IMG/VR virus record: IMGVR_UViG_3300045971_000482
Coordinates: 1 to 26,726 of that record
Strand: one strand, 5' to 3'
Source: a virus
Length of the DNA: 26,726 nucleotides
This document shows positions 2,554 through 26,726 of the stretch, one piece after another. The position numbers and the translations under genes were made by a program. The notes below the pieces were generated by a model. It was not told where the DNA came from. It saw only the letters and a list, made by a program, of their open reading frames with translations, and did not search any database. Every line of letters starts with the position of its first letter. Within the stretch, counting starts at the first letter, position 1.

Positions 2554-4329
2554 ATGTCCGCCGCCCCCCAATACGACTATCTAGTGGACGTGGCCCGCGC
2601 CGCCGCCGAGGCGGGGCATGGCAAAAAAGGCGCGATCTACGCCAGCGCCGTCCAGCACCTTGGAATCAGTAAATCCGAGTTGCACACCCGGCTGAACGAG
2701 GTCACCGTCCGCAAACAGCGCAAGCAACGGAGTGACGCCGGCAGCACCGCCGTCACCTACGACGAGGCGTTTATGATCTCGTGCTACCTCAACGAGCATA
2801 TACGCCGCAACGGCAAACGCATCAAATCGACCGAGCAAGCCGTGGACGAACTGCGGGCGAACGACAAAATCAGCGCCGCCCGCGTGGACAAAAAAACCGG
2901 CGAACTCAAACCCCTCTCGACCAGCGCCATTCTCCGCGCCCTCAGCCATTACAAGCTCCACCCCGGCCAAATCGCCGAACCTGACCCGGTGCAAGCCCTC
3001 TCAAGCCCGCACCCGAATTGGTGCTGGCAAATCGACGCCTCGCTGTGCGTCATCTTCAAGATGCCGGTACGGGGCCGTCGCATCGAGGAGCTGCGCGGGC
3101 AGGACGCCTACAAAAACAAGCTCCAACACTTGGCGAAAATCGAGCATCTGCTCGTCCAGCGCTACCTGATCACCGACCACGCCAGCGGCGCCATGTCCGT
3201 CTATTTCGCGCTAGGCGGAGAGTCGGTGGAGGGCTTGGTCAACACGCTGATCCACACGTTTATCGAGCGCCCCGGCTTCCCGCTTTACGGAGCGCCGAAC
3301 ATCCTCATGCTCGACCAAGCCAGCGCCAACCGCTCGGCGATGGTGCGTAACCTTTGTCGGTCGCTGGGCATCGAACTGAGCTACACGATGCCCGGCAACC
3401 CGCGCAGCAAAGGTCAGGTGGAGGGGGCGCACAACCTGTTTGAAACCGGCTTCGAGTCTGGCCTGCGGTTGGCCCCGGAAATCTCCACCACCGACCAGCT
3501 ACAGGCGCTGGCTGATAAATGGATTCATTGGTTCAACGGCGCGAGGCCGCATTCGCGCCATGGGATGACCCGTTACGAGGCATGGCAACTCATCACCGGC
3601 ACGCAACTGCGCCGCGTCGACGGCGACGCCAAAATGCTCCGCCTGCTGGCCCGCTCGGAACCCAAAACCCCCAAAGTCACGCCGTACCTGACGGTCGATT
3701 TTTTGGGCGATGAATACGACGTGTCACAAGTGCCTGACGTGATTGTTGGGCAAAAACTGCCCGTTTGCCGCTGCGGATTCGACGCCGAACAGGCCATTGT
3801 GGTGCGCGTTGATGCGGCCGGCCACGAAACCTTCCACTTGATCCCGCAAAAAAAACGCGAGGGCGATTTCAGCTTTTACGCCGGCGCGGCGGTCATCGGC
3901 CGGGAGTTCAAGCGATTTGAGGACACCCCCGTCCAGACGGCAAAAAAGCAAATGCAAATGGCCGCGACTGGCACCGACACGCTCAAAGACGCCGCCAAGG
4001 TGCGCAAAACCAGCGCTGCGCCTTTCAATGGTGAGATCAACCCACTCAAGACTGCCGAGGAATACAGGCACCCCGCCTGGCTACCCAAACGCGGCGAGGT
4101 CATCGACACACCCAAGCCGATCCTCGCGCCGCAGCGCTTGTCGCAGTTCGACTTTATCGACCGCCTAGCCGGCCATATGGGCAAGCGCTGGAACCCCGAA
4201 TTCACCCCGCGCATCCGGGCCATGTACCCGGACGGCGGGCTAGTGGATGACATCCCCGCGCTGGCCGAACGCCTGACCGGGGCCAACCCACCCGCCGAGC
4301 GGCCCGCGCTGCGCGTCGTCGGCGCATAA
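2554..4329 (+). CDS. MuA-like DDE transposase (integrase/rve core)
   Basis: This 591-residue protein catalyses strand cutting and transfer at the phage ends during integration and replicative transposition. Residues about 10-50 look like a DNA-binding segment. The retroviral-integrase-like core spans about 150-345 with D161 (WQIDAS), D254 (LMLDQAS) and E290 (SKGQVEGAHN). The second D and the E are 35 residues apart, the canonical DD35E spacing. WIHWFNGARPHSRHGMTRYE is typical of the end of the core. A beta-barrel-like region follows (about 375-430), and the C-terminal tail would contact the MuB partner. At 591 residues it is somewhat shorter than Mu A (663). It lies early in the operon, two genes before the MuB-like ATPase. 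Confidence 0.95.
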   Translation: MSAAPQYDYLVDVARAAAEAGHGKKGAIYASAVQHLGISKSELHTRLNEVTVRKQRKQRSDAGSTAVTYDEAFMISCYLNEHIRRNGKRIKSTEQAVDELRANDKISAARVDKKTGELKPLSTSAILRALSHYKLHPGQIAEPDPVQALSSPHPNWCWQIDASLCVIFKMPVRGRRIEELRGQDAYKNKLQHLAKIEHLLVQRYLITDHASGAMSVYFALGGESVEGLVNTLIHTFIERPGFPLYGAPNILMLDQASANRSAMVRNLCRSLGIELSYTMPGNPRSKGQVEGAHNLFETGFESGLRLAPEISTTDQLQALADKWIHWFNGARPHSRHGMTRYEAWQLITGTQLRRVDGDAKMLRLLARSEPKTPKVTPYLTVDFLGDEYDVSQVPDVIVGQKLPVCRCGFDAEQAIVVRVDAAGHETFHLIPQKKREGDFSFYAGAAVIGREFKRFEDTPVQTAKKQMQMAATGTDTLKDAAKVRKTSAAPFNGEINPLKTAEEYRHPAWLPKRGEVIDTPKPILAPQRLSQFDFIDRLAGHMGKRWNPEFTPRIRAMYPDGGLVDDIPALAERLTGANPPAERPALRVVGA

Positions 4330-4983: not shown

Positions 4984-5194
4984 CCTGCGCGACGACCTCA
5001 GCGAAATATTGGGCAAGCTGAAAGACGCCGGGCCGGACGACAAGCACGTCCGCGCCAACGCCGAAGCGGCGGCCAAAATCGCCTCGCAAATAATCAGCAG
5101 CGCCCGCGCCGAGACCGAGGCGCAGCACAAGCTCAACCCCGATGGCAAACACACGCCGATGGGCTTTTTGCAAATCACCGGGGGCGAAAAATGA
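4958..5194 (+). CDS. Small helical phage protein before MuB
   Basis: The 78-residue product is mostly charged helix (SDLRDDLSEILGKLKDAG, then EAAAKIASQIISSARAETEA). Its start at 4958 is set by a good AAGGAGA site and lies inside the end of the HNH gene. It overlaps the MuB-like ATG by four bases. Small helical proteins at this position are common in Mu-like phages, but I know of no assigned function. Confidence 0.65.
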   Translation: MTRPYTASDLRDDLSEILGKLKDAGPDDKHVRANAEAAAKIASQIISSARAETEAQHKLNPDGKHTPMGFLQITGGEK

Positions 5195-6429
5195 CCGGGC
5201 TTGCCGCCCTCATCCAACAGCACGGCATCAAAGCGGCCGACCTCCGCCGCGCCACCGCGCAAGCGGGCCGAAGATCCGGCCAGCCGCTCTCGGCGGCGGC
5301 CATGTCCGACCTCATCAACCATGGCCGCTGGCCCAAAGAGACCCCTGAGGAGGCATTAAAACAGCAGATTGAAAATTACTTGACCGGCGCGGGCATAAGC
5401 CCGGCCCAACTGACAGGACTGTGGACAGAGGCGGCAACCCCCGCCCACAGCGAAACGAAACGCCCCGGAAAAGACGGGGCCAAACACAAACAGGCAGAAA
5501 TCATGATACCGCCCGCAGAGATTTTAACCCAAGACGCCAGGAAAGCGTTCAAACTCAAATTCAACCCGTTTGAAGGGTTGCCCAAAAACCCCGGCGACTA
5601 CTACGTCACCGACAACATGCGATTTGCTAAAGAGGCCATCAACGAGGCGGCTGATTTGAGTGTCCTTCGCGCCATCGTTGGCGAATCAGGCAGCGGGAAA
5701 ACCGCGATTAAGCGGATGTTTAAGTGGGATATGGACAGCAAAACCACGCTGATTGAGGTGCTGGTGACGAACATGAGCGACACCGACAAGCGCGGCGGGC
5801 GCGTCATGCCCTCCGCGCAAATCCACACCACCATTATTCGCCGGTTGGCCGGGGAAAATGCCCGCGTCAAAGCGGACAGCCACGATAGACAGATGCAGTG
5901 CCGCTTATTGCTGCAATCAGAGTCCGAGAGTGGGCGAAAAATCGTCCTAATCATCGACGAGGCGCATGATCTGCACGGCAATGTCATTGCACATTTAAAG
6001 CGCATCCATGAATTGTCGGACGAATCGTTCGGGATGGTGCTAATCGGCCAGCCGCGCCTAGCCGCCAAGCTCACCCCGCGCCTATCGCCGGAAATCAAAG
6101 AGGCCGGGCAGCGCATCCCCATCGAAACCCTCAAGCCCTTAGACGTGGACGAAATCGCGGGCTATCTCGACAAGCGCCTGCTTCGCGTCGGCGCCACGTT
6201 CGGCGCCGTGTTCAGCGATGACGCCCCGGCGGCGTTCGCGGAGCATTTGACGCGCCGCGAACAGCAGGGCCGAGGCCCCGCCGTCGCCGTGTTGGAAACC
6301 TACCCGCTGGCGGTCGGCAATCTGGCCGTGTGGGCCATCAACCATGCGGCCTCACGCGGATTCGACCGCGTGACGCCGGACATCATCAAAGCCGCCGCCG
6401 CGAAAAGCGCGGCGGCGCGGGGGGTGTGA
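5191..6429 (+). CDS. MuB-like AAA+ ATPase (transposition target selector)
   Basis: The 412-residue protein has an N-terminal HTH-like region (about 1-65), a linker, and an AAA+ module with Walker A GESGSGKT (164-171) and Walker B IVLIIDEAH (251-259, D256-E257). GQP at the end of the following strand (MVLIGQPRL) suits a sensor-1 region. This is the MuB/TniB/ExeA-type ATPase group. In Mu, MuB binds target DNA in an ATP-dependent filament, activates MuA and confers target immunity. At 412 residues it is longer than Mu B (312). Its place after the transposase matches Mu except for the inserted HNH gene and its small neighbour. Confidence 0.9.
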   Translation: MTGLAALIQQHGIKAADLRRATAQAGRRSGQPLSAAAMSDLINHGRWPKETPEEALKQQIENYLTGAGISPAQLTGLWTEAATPAHSETKRPGKDGAKHKQAEIMIPPAEILTQDARKAFKLKFNPFEGLPKNPGDYYVTDNMRFAKEAINEAADLSVLRAIVGESGSGKTAIKRMFKWDMDSKTTLIEVLVTNMSDTDKRGGRVMPSAQIHTTIIRRLAGENARVKADSHDRQMQCRLLLQSESESGRKIVLIIDEAHDLHGNVIAHLKRIHELSDESFGMVLIGQPRLAAKLTPRLSPEIKEAGQRIPIETLKPLDVDEIAGYLDKRLLRVGATFGAVFSDDAPAAFAEHLTRREQQGRGPAVAVLETYPLAVGNLAVWAINHAASRGFDRVTPDIIKAAAAKSAAARGV

Positions 6430-6430
6430 G

Positions 6431-6607
6431 ATGGATATGCAAGAGCTAGAAGATGAAATTGGGGAATTATTGGAGAGGTTTTGGCGGGCAAACCCGCCAG
6501 ATACTCATATGCAAATCAATGTCACCGCCTGGTCAACCGCGAAAGTAAAGCTAGATGGAAAGCTGGAAATAAACACCAATATTGACATCGACAAGGAGGA
6601 GCTATGA
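6431..6607 (+). CDS. 58-residue acidic phage protein, unknown function
   Basis: A complete frame starts at ATG 6431, right after the MuB stop, and ends at TGA 6605-6607, overlapping the next ATG (ATGA). The product begins MDMQELEDEIGELLERFW and ends KLEINTNIDIDKEEL: an amphipathic helix followed by likely beta strands. A GTGAGATGG context gives coupling rather than a strong ribosome site. It is AT-richer than its neighbours. No family recognised. Confidence 0.6.
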   Translation: MDMQELEDEIGELLERFWRANPPDTHMQINVTAWSTAKVKLDGKLEINTNIDIDKEEL

Positions 6608-6807
6608 CCAAATCCCAGCTTATCGGCCTGCTAATCCACTACCCCGACGACACCGACATCACCGTCCGCGTCGCCTACCGGGGTGACGCCGGACTCATGA
6701 AATCCCCGGCCATGACCCTGCTGACGATAGACGACGAACCCGACAGCGCCTGCCTGATCGCAGACGGCCTAGACCAACACGATGACGACGAGGACACCCA
6801 CGCATGA
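6604..6807 (+). CDS. Small acidic phage protein, unknown function
   Basis: This encodes 67 residues after an AAGGAGGAGCT ribosome-binding site, the strongest in this stretch. The pattern SQLIGLLIHYPDDTDITVRV resembles small phage proteins that begin with a helix and a beta strand. The C-terminus is very acidic (DQHDDDEDTHA). Four-base overlaps at both ends place it in the early/middle operon. Confidence 0.6.
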   Translation: MTKSQLIGLLIHYPDDTDITVRVAYRGDAGLMKSPAMTLLTIDDEPDSACLIADGLDQHDDDEDTHA

Positions 6808-11992: not shown

Positions 11993-12575
11993 CATTGATT
12001 TGCTGCCCGAAGACGTCCGGGCCGAACTCGCCGCCGGGCTGAAATCCAGCGGCTGGGGCAATATCGACCGCTGGACGGAATGGCTCACCGAGCGCGGCTA
12101 CGAAATCAGCCGCACCACCGTCGGCAATTTCAATAAAGTCAGCAAAGAGCGTTTTAAGCAAGCTTGGGCGGATGCCGAGCAGACCGCGGCGATGGCGAAG
12201 CTGTTGGTCGCCAATAAGGAAAGCGACGGCGGCGCGACCTTGGCCGCGAATGAAATCCTCGCCAGCGATGGCCTGTTGCGGATGCAGCTCATGCTGCGCG
12301 ACCTAGAAGCGCTGGCGGACGGCATGGAAAGCGCGGAGGACGCGACCGGGCTAAAAATCGAACTGGCGAAGCTGCAAGGCCGGTTTTCGCGCAGCGTTGC
12401 CGACCTCAACAAAGCAGGCATCGCCCGCGCCAAGTGGCAAGAGGAAGTCAATAAAAAAATCGAGGCCACCATGGCCCGGCTGGAATCACAAGCCGCCGGC
12501 GGTGCAGGTGCAGGCAAATTGGACGCCGACACGCTTGCCGCCGTGCGCCGCGAAATTTACGGACTGGTCGGCTAA
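11976..12575 (+). CDS. DUF3486 protein (Mu gp27-like, likely small terminase)
   Basis: From ATG 11976 the 199-residue protein begins MARVNSIDLLPEDVRAELAA, with NIDRWTEWLTERGYEISRTT next, the DUF3486 hallmark and an HTH-like region for DNA recognition. A long coiled-coil stretch follows (about 75-175). In Mu, gp27 is the proposed small terminase subunit that pairs with gp28. The frame is open upstream to 11799, but that part overlaps the preceding gene. No ribosome site is seen, so coupling is likely. The stop overlaps the large-terminase ATG (TAATG). Confidence 0.85.
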   Translation: MARVNSIDLLPEDVRAELAAGLKSSGWGNIDRWTEWLTERGYEISRTTVGNFNKVSKERFKQAWADAEQTAAMAKLLVANKESDGGATLAANEILASDGLLRMQLMLRDLEALADGMESAEDATGLKIELAKLQGRFSRSVADLNKAGIARAKWQEEVNKKIEATMARLESQAAGGAGAGKLDADTLAAVRREIYGLVG

Positions 12576-13960
12576 TGGCCGCCATCGACCTCTATCCGTA
12601 TCAAAAGCGCTGGTTTGCCGACCCGGCGCGGTTCAAGTTGGGCCGCTTTGCGCGGCAAACCGGTAAAACCTTTACGACCACGCTGGAGCTGGTCGACGAC
12701 GCATTGCAGGCCGACGCCGGCGGACGCCGCAGCCCGTGGGTCATCCTCTCACGCGGCGAACGGCAAGCCCGCGAGGCGATGGAGGAGGGCGTTTTCCGCC
12801 ACTTGGAAGCCTATGGCCGCGCCGTCAAAAAATTGGGCGTCGAGGAAATTGACTGGTACGACGCCGACAGCGGGCTAAAACGCAAGGCATTACAGGTCGT
12901 CATTTCCAAATTGAACAAAATCACCGCGCTGCCCGCCAACCCGGACACCGCGCGCGGCTTTTCCGCAAACGTGTTTCTGGACGAGTTCTCGTTCCATGCC
13001 GACAGCCGCAAAATTTGGACGGCGCTGTTCCCGGTCATTTCCGCCGGCTACAAATTGCGCGTCACCTCCACGCCAAACGGCAAGGGCAATAAATTTTATG
13101 ACTTGGCGACCGGCCAAGACGACGGTTGGTCGCGGCACACAGTCGACATTTATCAAGCGGTCGCCGACGGCCTGCCCCGCGACATCGCCGAAATGCGCCT
13201 TGCGCTCGGCGACGAGGACGCCTGGGCGCAAGAGTTTGAGCTTAAATGGCTAGACGAGGCCAGCGCGTGGCTGTCGTTCGACCTCATCAATAGCTGCGAA
13301 CACGACCATGCCGGCCTGCCCGAGCATTACGCCGGCGGGCCGTGTTTTGTCGGCGTGGACATCGCGGCCCGAAACGACCTGTTTGTGATTTGGGTCGACG
13401 AACAAGTCGGCGACGTGCTGTGGACGCGCGAGGTCATCGCCAAGCGCCGGATCTCGTTTGCTGAACAAGACGGCTTGCTGGATGACGTGTTCGCCCGCTA
13501 TCGCGTCGTGCGCTGTTGCATGGATCAAACCGGCATGGGCGAAAAGCCCGTCGAGGATGCGATCCGCCGCTACGGCGCAACCCGCGTCGAAGGCGTTTTG
13601 TTCACTGGGCCGAATAAGCTGCTACTGGCCACGGCCGGCAAGCAAGCCTTTGAAGATAAAAAAGTTCGCAACCCGGCGGGCGACGCCGAACTGCGTAACG
13701 ATTTCCACAAACTGAAGAAAGAGACCGGCCCGACCGGGTCGCCGCGCTTTGTCGCCGACTCCGACGCCACCGGCCACGCCGACCGCACCTGGGCGCGATT
13801 TTTATCGATCCACGCCGCGCAGGGCGCGAACTACGCCATCGACTATCTACCCCTCCCTGCCAAACAATCAAGCTGGGACGGCGAAGCCAAGCAACCCCAT
13901 TTTTCCCTGCTGCCTCCCCGCGACGACGGCCCCGCCGTCACCGCCGATGGCGGCTGGTAA
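12575..13960 (+). CDS. Large terminase subunit (Mu gp28-like)
   Basis: The 461-residue DNA-packaging motor has an N-terminal ATPase with Walker A GRFARQTGKT (23-32) and Walker B VFLDEF (133-138, D136-E137). SRGERQAREAM and VTSTPNGKG (coupling-motif region) follow. The C-terminal RNase H-like nuclease shows likely acidic residues D262 (FVGVDIAARND), D317 (CCMDQTGMGEKP) and D403 (GHADRTWA). Mu packages by the headful, cutting in host DNA. The small subunit gene is immediately upstream with a one-base overlap. A hairpin follows the stop. Confidence 0.93.
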   Translation: MAAIDLYPYQKRWFADPARFKLGRFARQTGKTFTTTLELVDDALQADAGGRRSPWVILSRGERQAREAMEEGVFRHLEAYGRAVKKLGVEEIDWYDADSGLKRKALQVVISKLNKITALPANPDTARGFSANVFLDEFSFHADSRKIWTALFPVISAGYKLRVTSTPNGKGNKFYDLATGQDDGWSRHTVDIYQAVADGLPRDIAEMRLALGDEDAWAQEFELKWLDEASAWLSFDLINSCEHDHAGLPEHYAGGPCFVGVDIAARNDLFVIWVDEQVGDVLWTREVIAKRRISFAEQDGLLDDVFARYRVVRCCMDQTGMGEKPVEDAIRRYGATRVEGVLFTGPNKLLLATAGKQAFEDKKVRNPAGDAELRNDFHKLKKETGPTGSPRFVADSDATGHADRTWARFLSIHAAQGANYAIDYLPLPAKQSSWDGEAKQPHFSLLPPRDDGPAVTADGGW

Positions 13961-14425: not shown

Positions 14426-15736
14426 GTGACCCAATACTATATCCCCGCCAGCGGCTCGCCGGGCTCAACCGTCAGCGGCTTAACGCCATTAGGTAATGCC
14501 CTCAGTTCGGATTTTACGATCCAAACGGTCGGCGGAAGCTTGGCGATGGAGGCATACCGCTATTTAGCGTCGACCCCAACGTATGGCGCGACATTCGATG
14601 TGGTGGACGCCGATGCGCAGCGCGGAGATGTTGAAATATGGGCGCTGTGCTCATCAACGGTGGGCCTGTCGTCGTCGTTTGGCGTGGTGCTAGCCAGGGC
14701 CAATGGGGCGCTAGGGGCCGAAACTTTTTATGCGTTGCGTTGGTTGTCGTCGTTGCTGCAAATCGGCAGGCAATCGTCGGGTACGTTCACCACGCTCACC
14801 TCTATTTCCGCTAGCCGGGCCAGCAGCACCCGCTATCAGTTCCGATTTCGGATTAATGGCACGACGCTATCGGCAAAATTATGGGTTGACGGGGCGTCCG
14901 AGCCGACGACATGGCAGGTGTCGACATCCAACAGCACGATTACCGGCGCGGGGCGGGCGGGGATTTTTTGCCGCGCGATCTATCCCGCCATGGATTATTT
15001 TGCGATTGGCATTGGCACCAACGGCGACGCGGCCCCGACCGCGCCGGTCAGTGTGCCGGACTCGCTGATCGCCAGCCCCGGCAGTGTCATCGCCACGGGC
15101 AGCGCGGCCATCCTGACCGAGACCGTCGCCGCCCAGCCCGGCGCGGCGGCTTTGACCAGCCGCGCGGCGACGCTCACCGAAAGCCTTGCCGCCCGGCCCG
15201 GCGCGGCGGCGTTGACCGGCCAAGCGGCGACGCTCACCGAAGCCCTCGCCGCCCAGCCCGGCGCGGCGGCTTTGACCAGCCGCGCGGCGACGCTCACCGA
15301 AAGCCTTGCCGCCCAGCCCGGCGCGGCGGCGTTGACCGGCCACGCGGCGGCGCTAACCGAAAGCCTCGCCGCCCGGCCCGGCGCGGCGGCTTTGACCGGC
15401 CAAGCGGCGACGCTAACTGAAAGCCTCGACGCCCAGCCCGGCGCAGCAGCTTTGACCGGCCACGCGGCGACGCTAACCGAAAGCCTCGCCGCGCAGCCCG
15501 GCGCGGCGGCACTCACCGGCCATGCGGCGATACTCACCGATGCCATCGCCGCCATCCCCGGCGCGGCCCGGTTTATCGGCGGCATAGCCGTGTTCGGCGG
15601 GGCGATTGTCAAAATCGCCCGCTGGGCGGCCACGCTATTAGCCCCGCGCATCCGCGCCAAGATCGACGCCCCGACCGCCGCGCCGCGCATCGAATCTGTG
15701 CGCGTCGCCGCGCAAATCTACCCGGACGAGACCTAA
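14426..15736 (+). CDS. Repeat-containing putative virion protein
   Basis: The 436-residue protein starts at GTG 14426 with no clear ribosome site, three bases after the previous stop. Residues about 25-195 look like a concanavalin/LamG-type beta sandwich (FTIQTVGGSLAMEAYRYL, YQFRFRINGTTLSAKLWVDG, AGIFCRAIYPAMDYFAIGIG). Residues about 212-390 are nine 20-residue repeats with the pattern AATLTESLAAQPGAAALTG, seven of them well conserved. The last 40 residues are basic and beta-rich. A carbohydrate-binding head on a repetitive stalk would suit an appendage or decoration protein; this is inference from fold pattern and context. Confidence 0.7.
   Translation: MTQYYIPASGSPGSTVSGLTPLGNALSSDFTIQTVGGSLAMEAYRYLASTPTYGATFDVVDADAQRGDVEIWALCSSTVGLSSSFGVVLARANGALGAETFYALRWLSSLLQIGRQSSGTFTTLTSISASRASSTRYQFRFRINGTTLSAKLWVDGASEPTTWQVSTSNSTITGAGRAGIFCRAIYPAMDYFAIGIGTNGDAAPTAPVSVPDSLIASPGSVIATGSAAILTETVAAQPGAAALTSRAATLTESLAARPGAAALTGQAATLTEALAAQPGAAALTSRAATLTESLAAQPGAAALTGHAAALTESLAARPGAAALTGQAATLTESLDAQPGAAALTGHAATLTESLAAQPGAAALTGHAAILTDAIAAIPGAARFIGGIAVFGGAIVKIARWAATLLAPRIRAKIDAPTAAPRIESVRVAAQIYPDET
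15121..15540. repeat. Seven tandem 60-bp repeats in frame
   Basis: Seven consecutive 60-base units encode the 20-residue motif; degenerate copies flank them at 15061-15120 and 15541-15600. Units differ at a few positions (for example CAGCCC versus CGGCCC, and GCCGCC versus GACGCC). The length is a multiple of three, so copy-number change would lengthen or shorten the protein without a frameshift. Confidence 0.95.
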
Positions 15737-17092: not shown

Positions 17093-18757
17093 ATGGGCGC
17101 TATCGTCGACATCCACGGCAACCCCATCGAAACGGGGCAACTGGCCGAGCCGCAAAGCGCCGGGCCGAGCCTCGCCTATCTCAAACGCTACTACGCCGAC
17201 CATCCCTCGCGCGGCCTGACCCCGCCGCGCCTGGCGGAGATATTGGAAGAGGCGGAGCGCTTCCACTTCATGCGCCAGTCCGAACTCTGGCTAGACATCC
17301 GCGAAAAGTGGGGCCACGCGGCAGCAGAAATGGGCAAGCGCGAACGCGCTTTATTGACGCTTGAGCGCCGCTTTGTCGAACCCGACAACGCCAACCGCGC
17401 CGAGCGCAAAGCCACCGCGTTTTTGAATGACGTGTTCGATTCCTTCTTTGCGGCGGGCGTGCCGTCCGACGAGGAAGCGCAGGACGCGCCGCACGTCGAC
17501 AGCGTTATTTTGGGCTGCGCCGACGCTATCGGCCACGGCTTCAGCGCCCAAGAAATCGCTTGGCGGCGCGAGGGCAGCGAATGGATGCCCGGCGAGATCA
17601 CGCACAGGCCGCAAACGTGGTTCCGCCTCGACGTGGCAACGCACAGCAAAATCCGCTTGCGCGATCTGAGCGCCGAGGGCGCACGGCTGCGCCCGGGATC
17701 TTGGATATTGCACAAGCACCGCTCGACCTGTGGCTACGTGTCGCGGCAAGGCTTGGTGCGTTCGCTCGCATGGCCCTATATCTTCGCCAACTACAGCATC
17801 CGCGACCTCGCCGAGCTGCTCGAAATCTACGGCCTGCCGATCCTGATTGGCAAACACCCCGCGCAAGCGACCGACACCGAAAAGCGCAAGTTATTGCAGG
17901 CCGTCACCGAAATCGGCCACCGCGCCGGCGGCATCGTGCCGGATTCGATGGCGGTCGACGTGCTGCTCCAAGGGGCGGGCGCGAACGGCGACGTGTTCAA
18001 GCAGATGATCGAATGGGCCGAAGCGACCGCCTCGAAACTCATCACCGGGCAGCATCACATGGGCGGCAAAACCGCCACGGAGGCGATTGAGCGGCGCGAA
18101 ATCAAAGCCGACCTCATCACCACCGACGCCCGCCAAATCGACCAAACCCTGACGGCGTTCGGCTGGCTCATTTTGACGCTGAACCCGGCGGGCGTCGGCG
18201 TCGACCCTCGCCGCACGCCGCGCCACAAATTCGACACGGCGGAGGCGGAGGACGTGGAGCGTCTGGCGAAATCGCTGCCTCTGTTGATCGCCGTCGGCGC
18301 GGACATCTCCAAAAAATGGCTGTCGGAAAAAACCAAAATCCCGCCCGCCGAAAACGACGCCGACCGCCTCTCGCCGATGGCACCGGTCAACATCCCCGCC
18401 GTGGACGTGACCACCAAACAGGACATCAACAAGCCCGAACCCGCGCCCGCCGCGCTGGCGGGCAAGCCCTGGGCGCAGGCGCTGCTAGGCGGGCCCAGTA
18501 AGCGCCGCCCGCCCGCCGACCCCTCGCCCGCCGGGCTGTATGCCGAGCAGCTTGCCGAGCGGGCGGCAGGCCCGTTGGCCGAATGGGTCGCCGCGCTGAA
18601 ACAGGCGGCGGAGGACGCCGAATCGCTGGAGGAATTGAGGGACCGGTTCGGGGCGATGTTCCCCGATCTTTCGCCCAAGCCGATGACCGAGGTGTTCGCC
18701 GAGGCCATGCTGGCGGCGAATCTGGCGGGGCGGTTGGATGTGAGCAGGGGGAGTTAA
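17093..18757 (+). CDS. Portal protein (Mu gp29-like, DUF935)
   Basis: The 554-residue protein shows the DUF935 pattern: LTPPRLAEILEEAERFHFMR near the N-terminus, then GKRERALLTLERRFVEPD, HGFSAQEIAWRREGSEWMPG, RSLAWPYIFANYSIRDLAEL, LEIYGLPILIGKHPAQATD and ASKLITGQHHMGGKTATEAI. It forms the dodecameric channel at the head vertex through which DNA enters. The acidic, Pro/Ala-rich C-terminus is typical. The start is three bases after the endolysin stop. In Mu the portal follows gp28 directly; here about 3.1 kb intervenes. Confidence 0.93.
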   Translation: MGAIVDIHGNPIETGQLAEPQSAGPSLAYLKRYYADHPSRGLTPPRLAEILEEAERFHFMRQSELWLDIREKWGHAAAEMGKRERALLTLERRFVEPDNANRAERKATAFLNDVFDSFFAAGVPSDEEAQDAPHVDSVILGCADAIGHGFSAQEIAWRREGSEWMPGEITHRPQTWFRLDVATHSKIRLRDLSAEGARLRPGSWILHKHRSTCGYVSRQGLVRSLAWPYIFANYSIRDLAELLEIYGLPILIGKHPAQATDTEKRKLLQAVTEIGHRAGGIVPDSMAVDVLLQGAGANGDVFKQMIEWAEATASKLITGQHHMGGKTATEAIERREIKADLITTDARQIDQTLTAFGWLILTLNPAGVGVDPRRTPRHKFDTAEAEDVERLAKSLPLLIAVGADISKKWLSEKTKIPPAENDADRLSPMAPVNIPAVDVTTKQDINKPEPAPAALAGKPWAQALLGGPSKRRPPADPSPAGLYAEQLAERAAGPLAEWVAALKQAAEDAESLEELRDRFGAMFPDLSPKPMTEVFAEAMLAANLAGRLDVSRGS

Positions 18758-18759
18758 TC

Positions 18760-19296
18760 ATGGCTGAAAAATACGCCACCATCGTCATCGACCCGCCTTG
18801 GCCCGGCCCCGGCGGAGTGCCTGCGTTTGACGGGCAATCGGGTGAAGGCCGTTGCAAACTGAATTTGATCCCGTACTCGACGATGACCGGCATTCAAGTC
18901 GCTGGGCTAAACATCGACGACCTCGCCGCCGACGATTGCCAGTTATTTTTATGGGCCACGGGGCGGTCGGTCGGCGATGCGTTTTTGTTGTTGCAGCTAT
19001 GGGCATTCAAATATCGCGGCATATTCATCTGGCAAAAGCCCGGCTTGGGCATGGGGCGGCATATGCGCAACCAAGCCGAGTTTTTATTATGGGGCGGGCG
19101 CAAGGGCGCGCCGTTAGTTGAGCCTAAAAACTGCCCCCGGCAGATTCAATGCTGGCCGAAACCTAAGCGCCACAGCGAAAAGCCCCCGGAGGCTTACGAG
19201 TTTATTAAGTCGCTTTCAGGCGGGCCAAGGCTAGATATTTTCGCCCGCCAAGCCCGCGACGGATTTGAGCGGTTCGGGAATGAGGCACCGGCATAA
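18760..19296 (+). CDS. MT-A70 family DNA adenine-N6 methyltransferase
   Basis: From ATG 18760 (GGGGAG six bases before) the 178-residue protein has the catalytic motif D11-P-P-W (IVIDPPW). LFLWATGRSVGDAFLLLQLW and RGIFIWQKPGLGMGRHMRNQ follow, and RPRLDIFAR-like SAM-pocket residues appear near the end (GGPRLDIFARQARDGFERFG). This is the compact phage MT-A70 methyltransferase group, likely modifying adenine in phage DNA to avoid host restriction. It sits between portal and F-like head gene, which are neighbours in Mu. A longer upstream frame overlaps the portal gene and is rejected. Confidence 0.9.
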   Translation: MAEKYATIVIDPPWPGPGGVPAFDGQSGEGRCKLNLIPYSTMTGIQVAGLNIDDLAADDCQLFLWATGRSVGDAFLLLQLWAFKYRGIFIWQKPGLGMGRHMRNQAEFLLWGGRKGAPLVEPKNCPRQIQCWPKPKRHSEKPPEAYEFIKSLSGGPRLDIFARQARDGFERFGNEAPA

Positions 19297-20049
19297 ATGC
19301 CCCTAATCGCCTCCCCCGAAACGCTCAGCCTAGACAACGCGAAACTGCCGTTCGAGGAGCAAATCGCCTTTTTCAAAGGCAAAGCCGGGCTGCATATCCC
19401 GACGCAGCACTTCGACGACATCGCCACCGAGGAGCACGAGCACGCATTTGTCGTCGCCAACGCGCAAAAGGCCGATCTGCTGGCCGACTTTTACCACGCG
19501 GTCGAGACGGCGATTGCGGACGGCCAGTCCATTGACTGGTTCCGCAAACAGTTCGACGCGATCCAAGCCAAGCACGGCTGGGTTCACACCGGCGACGCCA
19601 GTTTCCGCACGCGGACGATTTACGATACCAACATGACGACCAGCTACGCCCGAGGCCGCGACGCGCAACTGGCCGACCCCGACCTGCGGGCCGTCCGCCC
19701 TTATCTCGAATACAACATCGGCCCAGCGGAGCACCACCGGGTAATACATCAATCATGGGCCGGCACGACGCTGCGCTATGACGACCCGTGGATCGAGGCG
19801 CACCGCCCCGTCAAAGCGTGGGGCTGTCATTGCTGGCTACGCGCCGTCCGCAACCCCACGCCGGGCCGCGACACCGCGCCCAAGGAATCGACCTATGAAG
19901 TCACCGACCGCCACGGCGTGCCGCACACGATCCCGATGGGCGTGGATTACGGATTCCACACCGATGGCTGGAAACCCGACCTGCGCGACTACCCGAAGCC
20001 CATCGCGGCGGATTTGAAAGCGGCGCTAAAGCGGGGTGACGATGCGTGA
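19297..20049 (+). CDS. Mu F-like head morphogenesis protein (SPP1 gp7 type)
   Basis: The 250-residue protein shows the phage head morphogenesis pattern. It has ADFYHAVETAIADGQSIDWF, then FRTRTIYDTNMTTSYARGRD, YLEYNIGPAEHHRVIHQSWA and the Cys/His cluster KAWGCHCWLRA, ending GVDYGFHTDGW. These minor head proteins associate with the portal and are ejected with or retained near the DNA. It is shorter than Mu gp30 (over 400 residues), mainly lacking C-terminal sequence. The start follows directly after the methyltransferase stop. Confidence 0.88.
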   Translation: MPLIASPETLSLDNAKLPFEEQIAFFKGKAGLHIPTQHFDDIATEEHEHAFVVANAQKADLLADFYHAVETAIADGQSIDWFRKQFDAIQAKHGWVHTGDASFRTRTIYDTNMTTSYARGRDAQLADPDLRAVRPYLEYNIGPAEHHRVIHQSWAGTTLRYDDPWIEAHRPVKAWGCHCWLRAVRNPTPGRDTAPKESTYEVTDRHGVPHTIPMGVDYGFHTDGWKPDLRDYPKPIAADLKAALKRGDDA

Positions 20050-22495: not shown

Positions 22496-23404
22496 ATGCA
22501 GATTACGCCAGACACTCTCAGCGTCCTAAACAACGGCTTCAATGCCGCGTTCATCGAGGGATTCAATGCCATCGGCTCAACGCCGAATTTGTATAAAGAG
22601 GTGTGCATGGAAGTGGCGTCCGCCGCCGCCCTTGAAAACTACGGCTGGATGAAAGACCTGCCGGGTATGCGCGAATGGGTCGGCCCGCGCTTGATTAACA
22701 ATATGGAAGCGCAAGGGATGCAGGTCGCCAACAAGGAATATGAGCACGCGCTCGGCATTAAGCGATTCGATATTGAAAACGACCGGCTCAATATTTTTAG
22801 CATGGGTGTGCGGATGCAGGGCGAAATTGTCGCCCGTCATCCGAACGAGCTAGTGTTTGCCGAAACGCTGCTCAACGGCTTTACGAAAACCGGCTACGAC
22901 GGCCAGTATTTTTTCGACAGCGACCACGTCGGCTATACGAATAAGGGCGTCGAGACCAGTTACTCGAACACCGGCGGCGGTTCCGGCGCGCCGTGGTTTT
23001 TGATGGATCTGTCGCGCACCTATATGCGCCCGTTAATCTGGCAGCTACGCCGCGCCCCTGAGTTTACGCCGTCGGTCAGTCCGGACAGCCATAATGTGTT
23101 TATGCTGAATGAGTTCCTCTATGGCGTGTATGCGGTCTATGCAGCCTCGTTCGGGTTTCACCAGTTGGCCTATGGCTCAAAAGACACGCTGAACCCGGCC
23201 AATTACGCCGCCGCCCGCACCGCGATGACCTCGCAGTTTCGCCCGGACGGCTCTGCGCTGGCCGTGCGCCCGACGCACCTAGTCACCGGGCCGAGCAACT
23301 TGGGGCTGGCCAAGGCTTTGCTTGAATCGCAGTTCAACAACTACGGCGCGAACAATATCTGGTACAACGATGCGAAAATTATCGAAGTGCCACAGCTAGG
23401 CTAA
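22496..23404 (+). CDS. Major head protein (Mu gpT-like)
   Basis: The 302-residue protein matches the Mu gpT family: LNNGFNAAFIEGFNAIGSTP, MKDLPGMREWVGPRLINNME, YEHALGIKRFDIENDRLNIF, NGFTKTGYDGQYFFDSDHVG and HLVTGPSNLGLAKALLESQF. It forms the icosahedral shell. The length is close to Mu gpT (about 305). The order protease/scaffold, small protein, gpT is that of Mu. AGAGG precedes the start. Confidence 0.94.
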   Translation: MQITPDTLSVLNNGFNAAFIEGFNAIGSTPNLYKEVCMEVASAAALENYGWMKDLPGMREWVGPRLINNMEAQGMQVANKEYEHALGIKRFDIENDRLNIFSMGVRMQGEIVARHPNELVFAETLLNGFTKTGYDGQYFFDSDHVGYTNKGVETSYSNTGGGSGAPWFLMDLSRTYMRPLIWQLRRAPEFTPSVSPDSHNVFMLNEFLYGVYAVYAASFGFHQLAYGSKDTLNPANYAAARTAMTSQFRPDGSALAVRPTHLVTGPSNLGLAKALLESQFNNYGANNIWYNDAKIIEVPQLG

Positions 23405-23417
23405 CCCGGAGATTGCC

Positions 23418-23726
23418 ATGCCATTACGCATCACATCCCGCCGCGACGGCTTTCGCCGTTGCGGCATCGCCCATCCCGCGACGCCGACCACGCACGCGGA
23501 CGGCCAATTCAGCGCCGAGCAAATTGCGGTGTTAAAAGCCGAGCCTATGTTGATCGTGGAAGTTTTGCCCGATCCGGGAGCGCCTCTCAAATCGCTGCCC
23601 GAGCCGGAAATCGTCGAAACGGTCGAGGCCGTCAAGCCGGAGCCGGAGCCGGAAATCGTCGAAACGGTCGAGGTCACAGGCCCCGCCGAATCGGACGAAA
23701 AAAAGCCCCGGCCACCTAAAAAATAA
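23418..23726 (+). CDS. Mu gp35-like (HI1506-related) small head-region protein
   Basis: The 102-residue product begins LRITSRRDGFRRCGIAHPAT and QFSAEQIAVLKAEPMLIVEV, the pattern of HI1506-related proteins of Mu-like prophages. A low-complexity tail follows with two imperfect copies of EPEIVETVE and a Lys/Pro end. It follows the major head gene as gp35 does in Mu. Function unknown; the acidic repeats are probably disordered. Confidence 0.8.
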   Translation: MPLRITSRRDGFRRCGIAHPATPTTHADGQFSAEQIAVLKAEPMLIVEVLPDPGAPLKSLPEPEIVETVEAVKPEPEPEIVETVEVTGPAESDEKKPRPPKK

Positions 23727-23764
23727 GAATAAAACCCCGCAGCGACTCCCGGCTAACCGAGATA

Positions 23765-23897
23765 GCGGACGCACGGCTGGCCGGGCAGCCGTGGGCGTCC
23801 GCGCACGAATCCACCGAGCGGGCGATTACCCGCATAATAAGGCGGCGTAAAATCCGCCGGACGCGGCGCGAGCCGTCCGCATGAACTCCGCGTCCGG
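23765..23897. other. Four-hairpin structured intergenic region
   Basis: The 192-base gap between the gp35-like and gp36-like genes is packed with stems. The first is 15 base pairs with a two-base bulge (23765-23779 with 23786-23802). The second is GCGGG/CCCGC (23818-23833) and the third GGCGG/CCGCC (23841-23858). The fourth is a perfect ten-base-pair stem, CCGGACGCGG/CCGCGTCCGG (23857-23866 with 23888-23897), which competes with a shorter internal hairpin. No T run follows, so simple termination is unlikely. Confidence 0.6.
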
Positions 23898-23918
23898 CAA
23901 CCCAACCCAGGCGAGCGC

Positions 23919-24341
23919 ATGACCCCCTACGCCACACTAGACGACCTCTACGCCGCATTTCCCCGCGTTGAAATCGACCGCCTGCTAGACAAAAACGGCA
24001 CCGGCAACCCCGACGATGCAACGCTGGCCATGGCGCAGGACTACGCGACCGCGACCATCAACGCCACCGTCGGCAACCGCGTCCAGCAACTGCTAGACGA
24101 CCCGGAAAAATTGGCAATGCTGAAATTCCCGGCGGTCGATTTAATGCGCTGGCGACTCTACGGCTCAAAAACGACGGAGGAGGTGCAGGCGCGGTTTGAC
24201 GCGGCCATGACGACATTAAAAAACATCCGTGCCGGCCTGTTAGACATCGGCCAAACCGCAGGCACGGACGCCACCGCCGCCGCCGAGTCCACGATCCAAA
24301 TCCTAAAAGCCCCGACACGCTGGGGCGACGGCTATTTCTGA
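23919..24341 (+). CDS. Mu gp36-like protein (DUF1320)
   Basis: The 140-residue protein begins YATLDDLYAAFPRVEIDRLL and contains ATINATVGNRVQQLLDDPEK and AVDLMRWRLYGSKTTEEVQA, with IQILKAPTRWGDGYF at the end: the DUF1320 family of Mu-like phages, thought to act in head completion or head-tail joining. It starts after GGCGAGCGC with no strong ribosome site, downstream of the hairpin region. The stop overlaps the next ATG (TGATG). Confidence 0.87.
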   Translation: MTPYATLDDLYAAFPRVEIDRLLDKNGTGNPDDATLAMAQDYATATINATVGNRVQQLLDDPEKLAMLKFPAVDLMRWRLYGSKTTEEVQARFDAAMTTLKNIRAGLLDIGQTAGTDATAAAESTIQILKAPTRWGDGYF

Positions 24342-24982
24342 TGGCCCGCAACCTAATCCAACGCACCGAGGACGCACTGCTGAGCGAAGCCAAAGCGGCG
24401 ACGCGCGGCCTATGCCACACGTATGCGACCTGCCCGGCGGACTGGGATCAAGCCATCGCCGAGCAGCTATTGCAAGCCGCGCCGGCGGTTTATTGCGCAT
24501 TTCTTCGCTGGCGTAAACGCGAGGGCTATTACGCCGGGCCGAAAAATGCCGAATTTGCTCTATATATATTGATAGCGGATGGCACCGACGAGATGCTGCG
24601 GCGGCGCGGCGACGCCTACGCCATCGGCGCGTATGGACTGGCCGAAATGATCGACGCGGCAATTGACGGGTGCGCCCTGGTAGATGCCGACGCCAATGCG
24701 CTAGGCACGCCGAGCGTGGACGGCCTGGACAACCTGTTTACGGTGCCGCTGTGGGATCTCGGCGCGACCTGCTACGGCCTGAGCGTGTCCATTTTGCTGC
24801 AACCCGACCCGCTGCCCAACCCCGACGACCTCGCCAGCGACATGCCTCCGGGCCTGATTGATCGCGTGCATACGGACTGGGACGTGCCGCCGCTCGCCAA
24901 TGCCGCCGCCCACGCCCGCTGGCTGGCCGGCGACCGCACGACATTGCCGCCCCCTGACGCGCAGGACGACGTGGCATTATGA
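24341..24982 (+). CDS. Mu gp37-like protein (DUF1834)
   Basis: The 213-residue protein shows the DUF1834/gp37 pattern: ARNLIQRTEDALLSEAKAAT, APAVYCAFLRWRKREGYYAG, AEFALYILIADGTDEMLRRR, RRGDAYAIGAYGLAEMIDAA and VPLWDLGATCYGLSVSILLQ. In Mu this gene lies just before the tail genes (gp38, sheath L, tube M). Here it is the last gene I can assign to the Mu head/neck module. Confidence 0.85.
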   Translation: MARNLIQRTEDALLSEAKAATRGLCHTYATCPADWDQAIAEQLLQAAPAVYCAFLRWRKREGYYAGPKNAEFALYILIADGTDEMLRRRGDAYAIGAYGLAEMIDAAIDGCALVDADANALGTPSVDGLDNLFTVPLWDLGATCYGLSVSILLQPDPLPNPDDLASDMPPGLIDRVHTDWDVPPLANAAAHARWLAGDRTTLPPPDAQDDVAL

Positions 24983-25275
24983 GCGAGCATGGGTCATACC
25001 GCGCCGTAAAAGAAGTCATGGCGGAAAAATCCAAACCCAAAAACAGGGTTGAACTTTTGCAGGACTTGGCCCATTTTGAGCGGCTGTTAGCGCTACGTCC
25101 CCACAACACGGCTACAATGACTGTGGTTGAAAACCTAAGAGAAAGGCTGGGCGCGGCCAGCGCCGAGGTCGCCGAGGTCGCCGAGGTCGCCGAGGTTGCC
25201 GTCAACGGCTTGGCGCATTATCAAACCCCGGCGGTAGATGTTGGCCGGTTGAACGATTGGGCAGATTTGATTTGA
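24979..25275 (+). CDS. Small helical protein at the prophage-cassette boundary
   Basis: The 98-residue product starts in an ATGA overlap with the gp37-like gene, so its beginning is part of the phage operon. It has a helical middle (ELLQDLAHFERLLALRPHNT, VVENLRERLGAASAEVAEVA), a run of Ala-Glu-Val repeats from the 9-bp repeat at 25162-25197, and a tail GRLNDWADLI. The stop lies four bases before an attC-like inverse core. Its C-terminus could therefore have been replaced when the phage was joined to the array. No family recognised. Confidence 0.55.
   Translation: MSEHGSYRAVKEVMAEKSKPKNRVELLQDLAHFERLLALRPHNTATMTVVENLRERLGAASAEVAEVAEVAEVAVNGLAHYQTPAVDVGRLNDWADLI
25162..25197. repeat. Four tandem 9-bp repeats (GCCGAGGTC)
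   Basis: Three exact copies of GCCGAGGTC and a fourth with one change (GCCGAGGTT) lie in frame in the boundary gene, encoding Ala-Glu-Val four times. Copy number could vary by slippage without a frameshift. Confidence 0.9.
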
Positions 25276-25279
25276 CTAA

Positions 25280-25406
25280 ACCTAACGAAAACGCTCAGGC
25301 GACGCAGGCCACCAGAGCCGAAAAGAGAAACAAAAGTGGACAACATAACCAACCTTGAACAAAGCCCCGTCGTGGCCCGCGGCCGCCTGGAGCAGCTTTT
25401 TAGGCT
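25280..25406 (+). other. Decayed attC-like site (candidate)
   Basis: ACCTAAC at 25280-25286 fits the RYYYAAC core. AGGCGACGCAGGCCAC at 25297-25312 is nearly complementary to GTGGCCCGCGGCCGCCT at 25373-25389. The far end reads TTTTAGGC instead of GTTAGGC, losing the G at which integron integrase cuts. The A-rich centre resembles the next site. It could be an inactive cassette boundary; the assignment is weaker than for the sites that follow. Confidence 0.45.
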
Positions 25407-25599
25407 TGTTGATTGCCCGTTTTGCGGGCCATCAGGCTCTCTTTTTGTCGAGCCATCCATTACTATCAGTCTCGGCAAGAGACTGCCGCTAGACGATCCA
25501 AAAACATGGTGGTAGGTAAAATGCACAGCTTGCGGAACTGATGGCCCACTTGGGAGGCCGAAACAGGCAGCAATATCGGCGTGGAATACACGGGCCTAA
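25336..25599 (+). pseudogene. Lar-like restriction alleviation gene split by an amber codon
   Basis: Reading from GTG 25336 (weak GAGA upstream), codons 1-59 encode a protein with CPFCG at 27-31. Codon 60 is TAG (25513-25515). The same frame then continues VKCTACGTDGPLGRPKQAAI and SAWNTRA to TAA at 25597-25599. CPFCG, CxxCGxxGP and AWNTR in this order are the hallmark of Lar-type zinc-ribbon proteins. Lar proteins of prophages reduce cutting by type I restriction enzymes. The simplest reading is a nonsense mutation (CAG or TGG to TAG) in a cassette gene; suppressor read-through is possible. The stop is inside the attC inverse core, usual for a cassette gene. Confidence 0.75.
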
Positions 25600-25717
25600 C
25601 GCTGGCGGTGTGCGCCCCCGGCCACCGCGAAACTTGAACGGAGAACCGAACATGCAAACCACAACCGAAACACCAAGCGCAAACGTGGCCGGGGTGCGCC
25701 CGACCGGATTGTTAGAC
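25594..25717 (+). other. attC site 1 of the cassette array
   Basis: GCCTAAC (25594-25600) and GTTAGAC (25711-25717) are the outer core sites. The arms GCGCCCCCGGCCAC and GTGGCCGGGGTGCGC are near-complementary and would pair in the folded single strand used by integron integrase. At 124 bases it is long; the central A/C-rich loop carries a ribosome site (GGAG) and ATG for the next frame. Confidence 0.7.
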
Positions 25718-25912
25718 GTTCAAACCGCGCCATTCGAGTTGCTATGCGGTTGTGTCGCAGTAGTATTTAGCCAAACCGAAGAGATGCGATTGGGAAAAAT
25801 GCGGCCAGAACAGGCTCAAGAATGGGTACACGCAGCAATCAGAGGATGCAGACGAGACAGAATTGTTTTGGCTGATTGCGAAAAATGCAACGGCACAGGG
25901 CTGGTCGTCTAA
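25652..25912 (+). CDS. Cassette protein with a CxxCxGxG motif
   Basis: The 86-residue product starts at ATG 25652, eight bases after GGAG, and ends at TAA inside the next inverse core. Its centre (EEMRLGKMRPEQAQEWVHAA) is helical. The C-terminus DCEKCNGTGLVV has one CxxCxGxG repeat, the half-zinc-finger unit known from DnaJ. The first 20 codons lie inside attC 1, so recombination at GTTAGAC would exchange the N-terminus. No family recognised; a metal-binding or protein-interaction role is only a suggestion. Confidence 0.6.
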   Translation: MQTTTETPSANVAGVRPTGLLDVQTAPFELLCGCVAVVFSQTEEMRLGKMRPEQAQEWVHAAIRGCRRDRIVLADCEKCNGTGLVV

Positions 25913-26002
25913 CGCCGAGTTCAGCGGGCCGCGCCCTGAACTGGACTCCGAAAACAACAAACAAACCTGCGGGCGCGGCTCCGCTGAAACTGAGGGTTAG
26001 AA
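25907..26002 (+). other. attC site 2 of the cassette array
   Basis: GTCTAAC (25907-25913) pairs with GTTAGAA (25996-26002, last base not pyrimidine). The arms GTTCAGCGGGCCGCGCC and GGCGCGGCTCCGCTGAAAC are complementary apart from small bulges, the extrahelical bases expected of attC. The central loop is A/C-rich. Its first 64 bases after the core are identical to attC site 5. Confidence 0.88.
25909..25972. repeat. 64-bp direct repeat shared by attC 2 and attC 5
   Basis: These 64 bases recur without mismatch at 26663-26726. The two sites belong to different cassettes with unrelated genes and are separated by two divergent attC sites. Confidence 0.95.
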
Positions 26003-26005
26003 CAC

Positions 26006-26149
26006 ATGCCGGACATGGGACACAAAGAAGACCCCACGCGAAGAACCAGGGCGGAATCGATCATTCGTAAAAAATACCCTGTCTTAATGAAAAACTCGGC
26101 AGGTTGGAACCGCGCAGTCAATGCACAGATGCGCAAGAATGGGTTCTAA
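26006..26149 (+). CDS. 47-residue basic cassette protein
   Basis: The frame starts three bases after the attC 2 core and ends at TAA in the next inverse core, a perfect cassette fit. The product (MPDMGHKEDPTRRTRAESII, RKKYPVLMKNSAGWNRA, ending MRKNGF) is basic and probably helical. The GAGG serving as ribosome site lies within attC 2. No family recognised. Confidence 0.6.
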   Translation: MPDMGHKEDPTRRTRAESIIRKKYPVLMKNSAGWNRAVNAQMRKNGF

Positions 26150-26237
26150 CGACCAGTTCAGCGGGCCGCGCCCCGCTGAAAACTGGAAAATTGAAACGAC
26201 CTAGCGGCGCGGGTGCGCTGGAACGGGACGGTTAGAC
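26144..26237 (+). other. attC site 3 of the cassette array
   Basis: TTCTAAC (26144-26150, first base not purine) and GTTAGAC (26231-26237) are the outer cores. Arms GTTCAGCGGGCCGCGCC and GGCGCGGGTGCGCTGGAAC are near-complementary. An internal CAGCGGGGCG-type hairpin (CAGCGGGCC against CCCCGCTGA) may also form. Length is 94 bases, within the normal attC range. Confidence 0.85.
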
Positions 26238-26417
26238 ATGGCGCTTAATACACCACAACATGCAAGGTGGCTCGAACTACAAACGCTGTGCAAAAACTGC
26301 AAACTGAAACACTTGGCCCTTCGAGAATGCAACTTTAAGAAAGGCGGAGAAATGCACAGAGGGGCAAATGGCGAGGCGATAATAGACAAATGCGCCGGTT
26401 ATGATCCTGTCGTCTAA
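26238..26417 (+). CDS. 59-residue cysteine-rich cassette protein
   Basis: The ATG follows the GTTAGAC core immediately and TAA lies inside the next inverse core. The product has C18-x2-C21 (LCKNCKLKHLALREC) with Cys at about 31 and 52 and His at about 25, a possible zinc-binding set. The ribosome site GGACGG is supplied by attC 3. No family recognised, though small treble-clef-like proteins are common in cassette arrays. Confidence 0.65.
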   Translation: MALNTPQHARWLELQTLCKNCKLKHLALRECNFKKGGEMHRGANGEAIIDKCAGYDPVV

Positions 26418-26509
26418 CGCCATGCCGGTAAGCGACCCGCGCCACACCGCAAAAACTAAAAACACCACGCCGCGTTGTGGCGCGGGTGCGCTTGACCGGC
26501 CTGTTAGGC
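26412..26509 (+). other. attC site 4 of the cassette array
   Basis: GTCTAAC (26412-26418) and GTTAGGC (26503-26509) both fit the core consensus. The arms GCCGGTAAGCGACCCGCGCC and GGCGCGGGTGCGCTTGACCG pair almost fully with single-base bulges. At 98 bases, this is the cleanest attC in the window. Confidence 0.9.
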
Positions 26510-26529
26510 GCTCTGGTGCAATTATTAGG

Positions 26530-26726
26530 ATGTGCGCTTGTGGCACTCGACAATGGCCCCCTGTACCCTGCCTGGATATTTTTACCAATGGAGCGGTAAA
26601 CTTTGCCCATTGCGATATTTGCGGAAAAACATGGGACACTGACCGCCTAATCGAATTGCCGCCTAACGCCGAGTTCAGCGGGCCGCGCCCTGAACTGGAC
26701 TCCGAAAACAACAAACAAACCTGCGG
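26530..26726 (+). CDS. Cysteine-rich cassette protein, C-terminus beyond the window
   Basis: From ATG 26530, 20 bases after the attC 4 core, the frame encodes MCACGTRQWPPVPCLDIFTN, then HCDICGKTWDTDRL, suggesting a two-part zinc ribbon (CxC and CxxC). Unlike the other cassette genes it is not in frame with the TAA of the inverse core and reads on through attC 5 to the window edge. If attC 5 is completed like attC 2, the stop would be the TAG of its GTTAG core, adding an attC-encoded tail. Confidence 0.55.
   Translation, partial: MCACGTRQWPPVPCLDIFTNGAVNFAHCDICGKTWDTDRLIELPPNAEFSGPRPELDSENNKQTC
26661..26726 (+). other. attC site 5, left part (cut by the window end)
   Basis: GCCTAAC at 26661-26667 begins a site whose sequence from 26663 to the end is identical to 25909-25972 in attC 2, including the arm GTTCAGCGGGCCGCGCC and the A/C-rich loop. 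The right half lies outside the window. Confidence 0.82.

Follow-up and report, generated by a model that had tools for sequence, protein, structure and literature searches.

Plasmids and transposons are regarded as the main vehicles of integron cassettes. Integrons and clusters of attC sites lacking an integrase (CALINs) have also been described in both virulent and temperate phages; phage attC sites recombine with attI1, some are active with IntI1, and it was proposed that cassettes with DNA methyltransferases protect phages from restriction (Qi et al. 2023, PMC9892861). The locus described here resembles these phage CALINs: its attC sites are clustered with no integrase in the record, and its cassettes point in the same direction and have unassigned functions. 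It differs from them in its setting, because here the cassettes are part of head operons in transposable phages (four phages, two positions) and one of them is a Lar-type anti-restriction gene, whereas the survey of phage CALINs (PMC9892861) describes none in a Mu-like head operon and has the term "Mu-like" only in the title of a reference. Sedentary chromosomal integrons of Rhodocyclaceae are another close system: they have an attC core in common with one of our phages (contig L161), and the integrase is present in two of the prophage hosts. The array studied here, in contrast, has no integrase or recognised attI, and none of the attC types seen in these integrons is that of the window. Finally, Mu-like phages are known for morons or cargo genes, which, as in our case, are extra genes among structural genes (e.g., a methyltransferase between portal and gp30); to our knowledge, ordinary morons have no attC sites. 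Phage-borne attC clusters are thus known, and Mu-like head operons appear to be a new place for them: no paper on attC cassettes in such operons was found in the open-access literature searched.

The DNA analysed, referred to as the window, is the full IMG/VR record IMGVR_UViG_3300045971_000482 (26,726 bases, linear). It is probably a fragment of a virus genome with neither phage end present, and a further phage-side ORF is still open at its left end. The window encodes a repressor, MuA, MuB, terminase, endolysin, portal, gp30, gpG, protease, decoration protein, gpT, gp35, gp36, and gp37, and the virus is a Mu-like (transposable) phage, as it has both the MuA and MuB transposition proteins (phrog_310 and phrog_296) and the Mu-type head order TerL, portal, gp30, G, I, T, gp36, gp37. 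An earlier note, made from the letters alone, had recognised a Mu-like head operon in Mu order through gp37, and the profile searches bear this out (PF07030 for gp36, E = 1.5e-20; PF08873 for gp37, above the curated cut-off). The head genes through gp37 are all open and full length, and gp37 is complete in a full-length alignment with 7 relatives. Positions of the features are given in Table 1. The MT-A70-type methyltransferase gene (18754-19296) occupies the portal/gp30 gap, which in three relatives discussed below contains attC cassettes; no attC remains in this gap of the window, and the gap looks like a general cargo site. The interval between terminase and endolysin contains a 436-aa ORF (14426-15736) with many tandem repeats of 16-17 residues (ESLAAQPGAAALTGHAATLT) and no Pfam match.

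Table 1. Features of the phage backbone, the junction, and the cassette array in the window.
Feature	Position	Strand	Remarks
MuA-type transposase	2554..4329	+	phrog_310 transposase, E 5.6e-84
MuB-type transposition protein	5191..6429	+	phrog_296, E 2.1e-31
Large terminase	12575..13960	+	phrog_5909, E 8.9e-61
Portal protein (Mu gp29 position)	17093..18757	+	phrog_113, E 6.8e-114
MT-A70 DNA methyltransferase, cargo gene	18754..19296	+	phrog_359, E 2.7e-35; PF05063
gp30, minor head protein	19297..20049	+	phrog_220, E 3.6e-57
Major head protein gpT	22496..23404	+	phrog_371, E 5.3e-88
gp36, head-tail adaptor	23919..24341	+	PF07030, E 1.5e-20; phrog_195
gp37, last recognisable phage gene	24341..24982	+	PF08873 above curated cut-off
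ORF without family match	24979..25275	+	ATGA overlap with gp37 stop; at gp38 place of relatives
First cassette, Lar-family restriction alleviation ORF	25336..25599	+	GTG start; final stop TAA in attC1 R'' box
attC1 (GCCTAAC ... GTTAGAC)	25594..25717	+	scan, fold, covariance model
Cassette 2, 285 b	25712..25996	+	Cys-containing ORF, stop in attC2 R'' box
attC2 (GTCTAAC ... GTTAGAA)	25907..26002	+	scan, fold, covariance model
Cassette 3, 235 b	25997..26231	+	47-aa ORF 26006-26149
attC3 (TTCTAAC ... GTTAGAC)	26144..26237	+	scan, fold, covariance model
Cassette 4, 272 b	26232..26503	+	59-aa Cys-rich ORF 26238-26417
attC4 (GTCTAAC ... GTTAGGC)	26412..26509	+	strongest fold, z -5.2
Cassette 5, incomplete	26504..26726	+	Cys-rich ORF from 26530
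attC5, cut off by contig end	26661..26726	+	65/66 identical to attC2 5' half

The array comprises four complete attC sites (25594-26509) and a fifth that is cut off by the contig end. The array has the close succession of two or more attC sites that is typical of a CALIN. An architecture scan, which looks for R'' and R' boxes with complementary arms, returned exactly the four complete sites in the 26.7-kb window. Dinucleotide shuffles, 10 for the whole window and 100 for the array, gave no site at the same threshold, and 2.56 Mb (both strands) of related loci gave none at a stricter setting; thus, the sites are not due to chance. The scan also matches a MITE-like repeat (L086) and sites within genes (L085, L159), all of which were excluded by position. 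The former is a pair of near-identical long inverted repeats in a Mu-like head operon of a Methylococcaceae MAG (L086:1676-1941). The bottom strands of the window sites form attC-like hairpin folds (z from -2.0 to -5.2), and four of the cassette ORFs have their stop codon within the R'' box. The cassette ORFs are small, mostly Cys-rich, and in the direction of the operon; that of cassette 2 bears a weak likeness to phage antiterminator Q (phrog_127, E = 0.011). No exact match to the attC arms was found in approximately 85,000 genomes or IMG/VR, the array DNA has no match among plasmid and phage records, and an Rfam search gave none either. The integrase gene normally lies upstream of an array, and in the window that side is phage: only phage sequence precedes the first cassette. 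As for the integron integrase that the earlier note had proposed to look for in flanking contigs, none is encoded in the 26.7-kb record (TIGR02249), which therefore contains no complete integron; the record ends inside the array, and the right side past the contig end could contain one.

The first cassette deserves separate mention. With TAG read as X, its product matches Lar zinc-ribbon profiles (PF14354, E = 5.8e-9; TIGR03655, above the cut-off), and it also matches phrog_599 (E = 4.9e-10), which makes it a phage-type gene. The reading frame is broken by one in-frame TAG (25513-25515). We rejected recoding of this codon, because the endolysin and gpG genes of the same phage end in TAG, and we read Lar as a broken gene. 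Two weak terminator-like hairpins on the plus strand (25385-25439) lie within the Lar ORF.

The earlier note had the array following gp37 within about 300 bases, in a segment ending at 25410. The array is indeed there, on the plus strand and with four attC sites. It begins within approximately 350 bases of the end of gp37 (24982), an extra ORF (24979-25275) intervenes, and position 25410 falls inside the first cassette ORF (25336-25599). This extra ORF has no match in phage records and none in Pfam; since it matches no family, its identification as gp38 was rejected. Two GTT motifs that fit GTTRRRY (at 25048 and 25248) are within chance expectation, so the exact insertion point is not readable. 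The earlier note had also held that the phage genes stop here, with no tail genes or right end, and had inferred a deletion of the tail module. Repeats of the 66-nt attC kind are places where assemblers stop. The record ends 1,744 bases past gp37, and its last bases match the 5' half of attC2 at 65 of 66 positions. A lack of tail genes or a right end is therefore not observable: that no tail genes are seen is due to the fragmentary record, and nothing observable speaks for their deletion, as the contig ends in the repeat before they could appear. In relatives with a recognisable gp37, sheath and tail genes begin approximately 200-300 bases after it, which means that the array occupies the place of the next phage gene.

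The same junction raises the question of whether a phage contig and a cassette-array contig were wrongly joined during metagenome assembly, somewhere between gp37 and attC1 (24982-25594). On the one hand, the fragment breaks in an attC repeat, so assembly struggled there, GC content drops from approximately 0.62 to 0.54 across the junction, and the collections searched contain no close relative that shares this junction. On the other hand, a search for repeats common to the phage part and the array part gave none at the junction itself, the next ORF overlaps gp37 and is followed by the Lar cassette without a break, and a phage-type gene as the first cassette is what would be expected in a phage. 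The comparison with other prophages bears on this question further.

The closest capsid relatives (approximately 50-60% identity) are prophages of Rhodocyclaceae and neighbouring groups. The earlier note had looked to an intact version of the phage for the sequence after gp37; no close relative by gp37 was found in IMG/VR, and in relatives with a recognisable gp37, tail genes come next. We ran a covariance model of the window attC sites on the relatives, and it matched three independent Rhodocyclaceae Mu-like prophages, upstream of gp30 in each. In the 242-kb contig of a Pseudothauera rhizosphaerae isolate (strain CC-YHH848), two attC sites (L089:5882-5940 and 6307-6365) lie in the portal-gp30 interval with ORFs between them, and the remaining head and tail genes are found downstream. 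Two sites (L085:5269-5325 and 6407-6475) in a Thauera MAG bracket three ORFs at portal/gp30. In the third case, MAG contig L161, an attC site (6564-6622) lies upstream of gp30, and the contig ends before portal. Most relatives have the empty arrangement, with portal and gp30 joined within 20-60 bases. The cassette ORFs of the three prophages are unrelated in family searches (DUF2528, DUF7736, or nothing), which suggests separate captures. No relative has cassettes at the gp37 position; all three have them at portal/gp30. Searches with gp30 in 299 genomes from the family and 399 from the order revealed no case beyond these three, and there was no new one among 80 gp30 and 11 portal loci in IMG/VR; the association of attC sites with Mu-like head operons is therefore rare. 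Thus, capture of cassettes by Mu-like head operons recurs, though rarely, and the link between phage and integron that the earlier note had seen in one record gains strength from the three related prophages. With three other head operons containing attC cassettes, one of them in the long contig of a cultured strain, a misassembly becomes a weaker explanation for the window; it is improbable there in our judgement, and it is no option for the Pseudothauera isolate contig.

Two of these prophages have attC sites that resemble those of known integrons. Over 65 bp, the Pseudothauera site has 93.8% identity with class-1-integron attC sites of resistance cassettes, which are present in at least 5,000 plasmid records, and the L161 site has a core of 29-31 bp that is 93-97% identical and common to chromosomal attC sites of many Rhodocyclaceae. 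Two of the three host genomes, Pseudothauera (G006) and Thauera (G003), encode a full-length integron integrase (473 and 471 bits, respectively; cut-off 265), and attC arrays adjoin the integrase genes in both.

We favour the reading, to which we assign a probability of roughly 0.55, that a Mu-like prophage received a CALIN by insertion into its late head operon, directly behind gp37, likely through a host integrase. It builds on the head operon through gp37, the attC array and its orientation, and the record free of an integrase, and on a similar association in the three prophages, two of them in hosts with integrase genes. A host integron integrase would excise cassettes at attC from a chromosomal array and insert them into the resident prophage at degenerate non-attI targets. 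Integrases reportedly accept non-classical targets, and genomic insertion of cassettes at such attG sites is established (Loot et al. 2024, as cited in PMC12901181). Insertion of the attG type would explain cassettes in a target that is not an integron, a mechanism we infer for the window. Late phage transcription would then run into the cassettes, with the phage operon replacing the integron promoter. No promoter-like site was found in 23400-26726, and the cassettes lie in the operon direction, so their expression would depend on the late transcript; shared transcription of head genes and cassettes is plausible from their common strand and the lack of such a site. Phage tail genes probably continue past the contig end, and transposition and virions would carry the cassettes to new hosts. 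If so, a transposable phage that takes cassettes into its late operon would offer a further route of cassette spread, one with no fixed landing place in a new chromosome, and the phage would gain access to the host cassette pool, e.g., to anti-restriction genes. These Mu-like phages seem capable of acquiring integron genes and carrying them, and the Pseudothauera case, which sits in a cultured strain, makes this testable.

A different view is that the window derives from a decayed prophage in or beside a chromosomal integron, the tail module having been lost, as the earlier note proposed, by deletion or by integrase-mediated joining that fused the head genes to the array. Prophages do occur in such a neighbourhood: IMGVR_UViG_2834908352 (48,225 bases; L191-L193), with Mu-like head genes at approximately 14-23 kb and a long attC array at 37.5-46.6 kb, is a prophage beside a chromosomal integron, the two being separated by 15 kb. 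The nonsense codon in the Lar ORF and a related Azoarcus prophage (L094), which stops inside the gpT alignment and continues with non-phage ORFs, also fit decay. We nevertheless doubt this explanation, since the head genes through gp37 are intact, no host gene is seen at either end of the window, and the Pseudothauera cassettes coexist with downstream head and tail genes, which makes insertion without tail loss the simpler model. As to the Azoarcus MAG itself, the gpT match (L094:8186-9313) does not extend past the first half of the protein, and the ORFs that come next are not of phage type; this is a truncated prophage or a contig join.

A single classical cassette insertion leaves an attC only at the 3' end. 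In the Pseudothauera and Thauera prophages, the first attC contains the stop codon of portal and comes before the first cassette ORF, an arrangement for which one insertion does not account. Loss of an earlier cassette is one possible reason; the other is that the attC has been fixed as a docking site. The arrangement could also be taken to mean that homologous or illegitimate recombination between phage and integron, with no integrase involved, moved attC-bearing DNA in as an ordinary moron. We regard this as highly improbable, because cassettes with different attC sites and unrelated ORFs in the standard order are the known product of an integrase. Insertion by an integrase, as favoured above, can also be extended, more speculatively: Mu-like head operons might serve as a surrogate integron platform, the portal-fused attC (stop within R'') being a standing docking site in Rhodocyclaceae phages. 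Cassettes would be swapped at this site by host integrases, expressed from the late promoter, and spread by the phage, among them anti-restriction cassettes of use to the phage itself. We consider this extension rather unlikely.

Twenty-four IMG/VR stretches (L105-L128) contain a class-1-like attC 3' arm (GTCGGCTTGAANGAATTGTTAG); in one of them (L105), the arm comes after a gene that by eye resembles a phage head gene. Twenty viral contigs with such an arm were inspected by ORF only and are not counted as evidence here; phage-borne attC sites may be commoner than reported.
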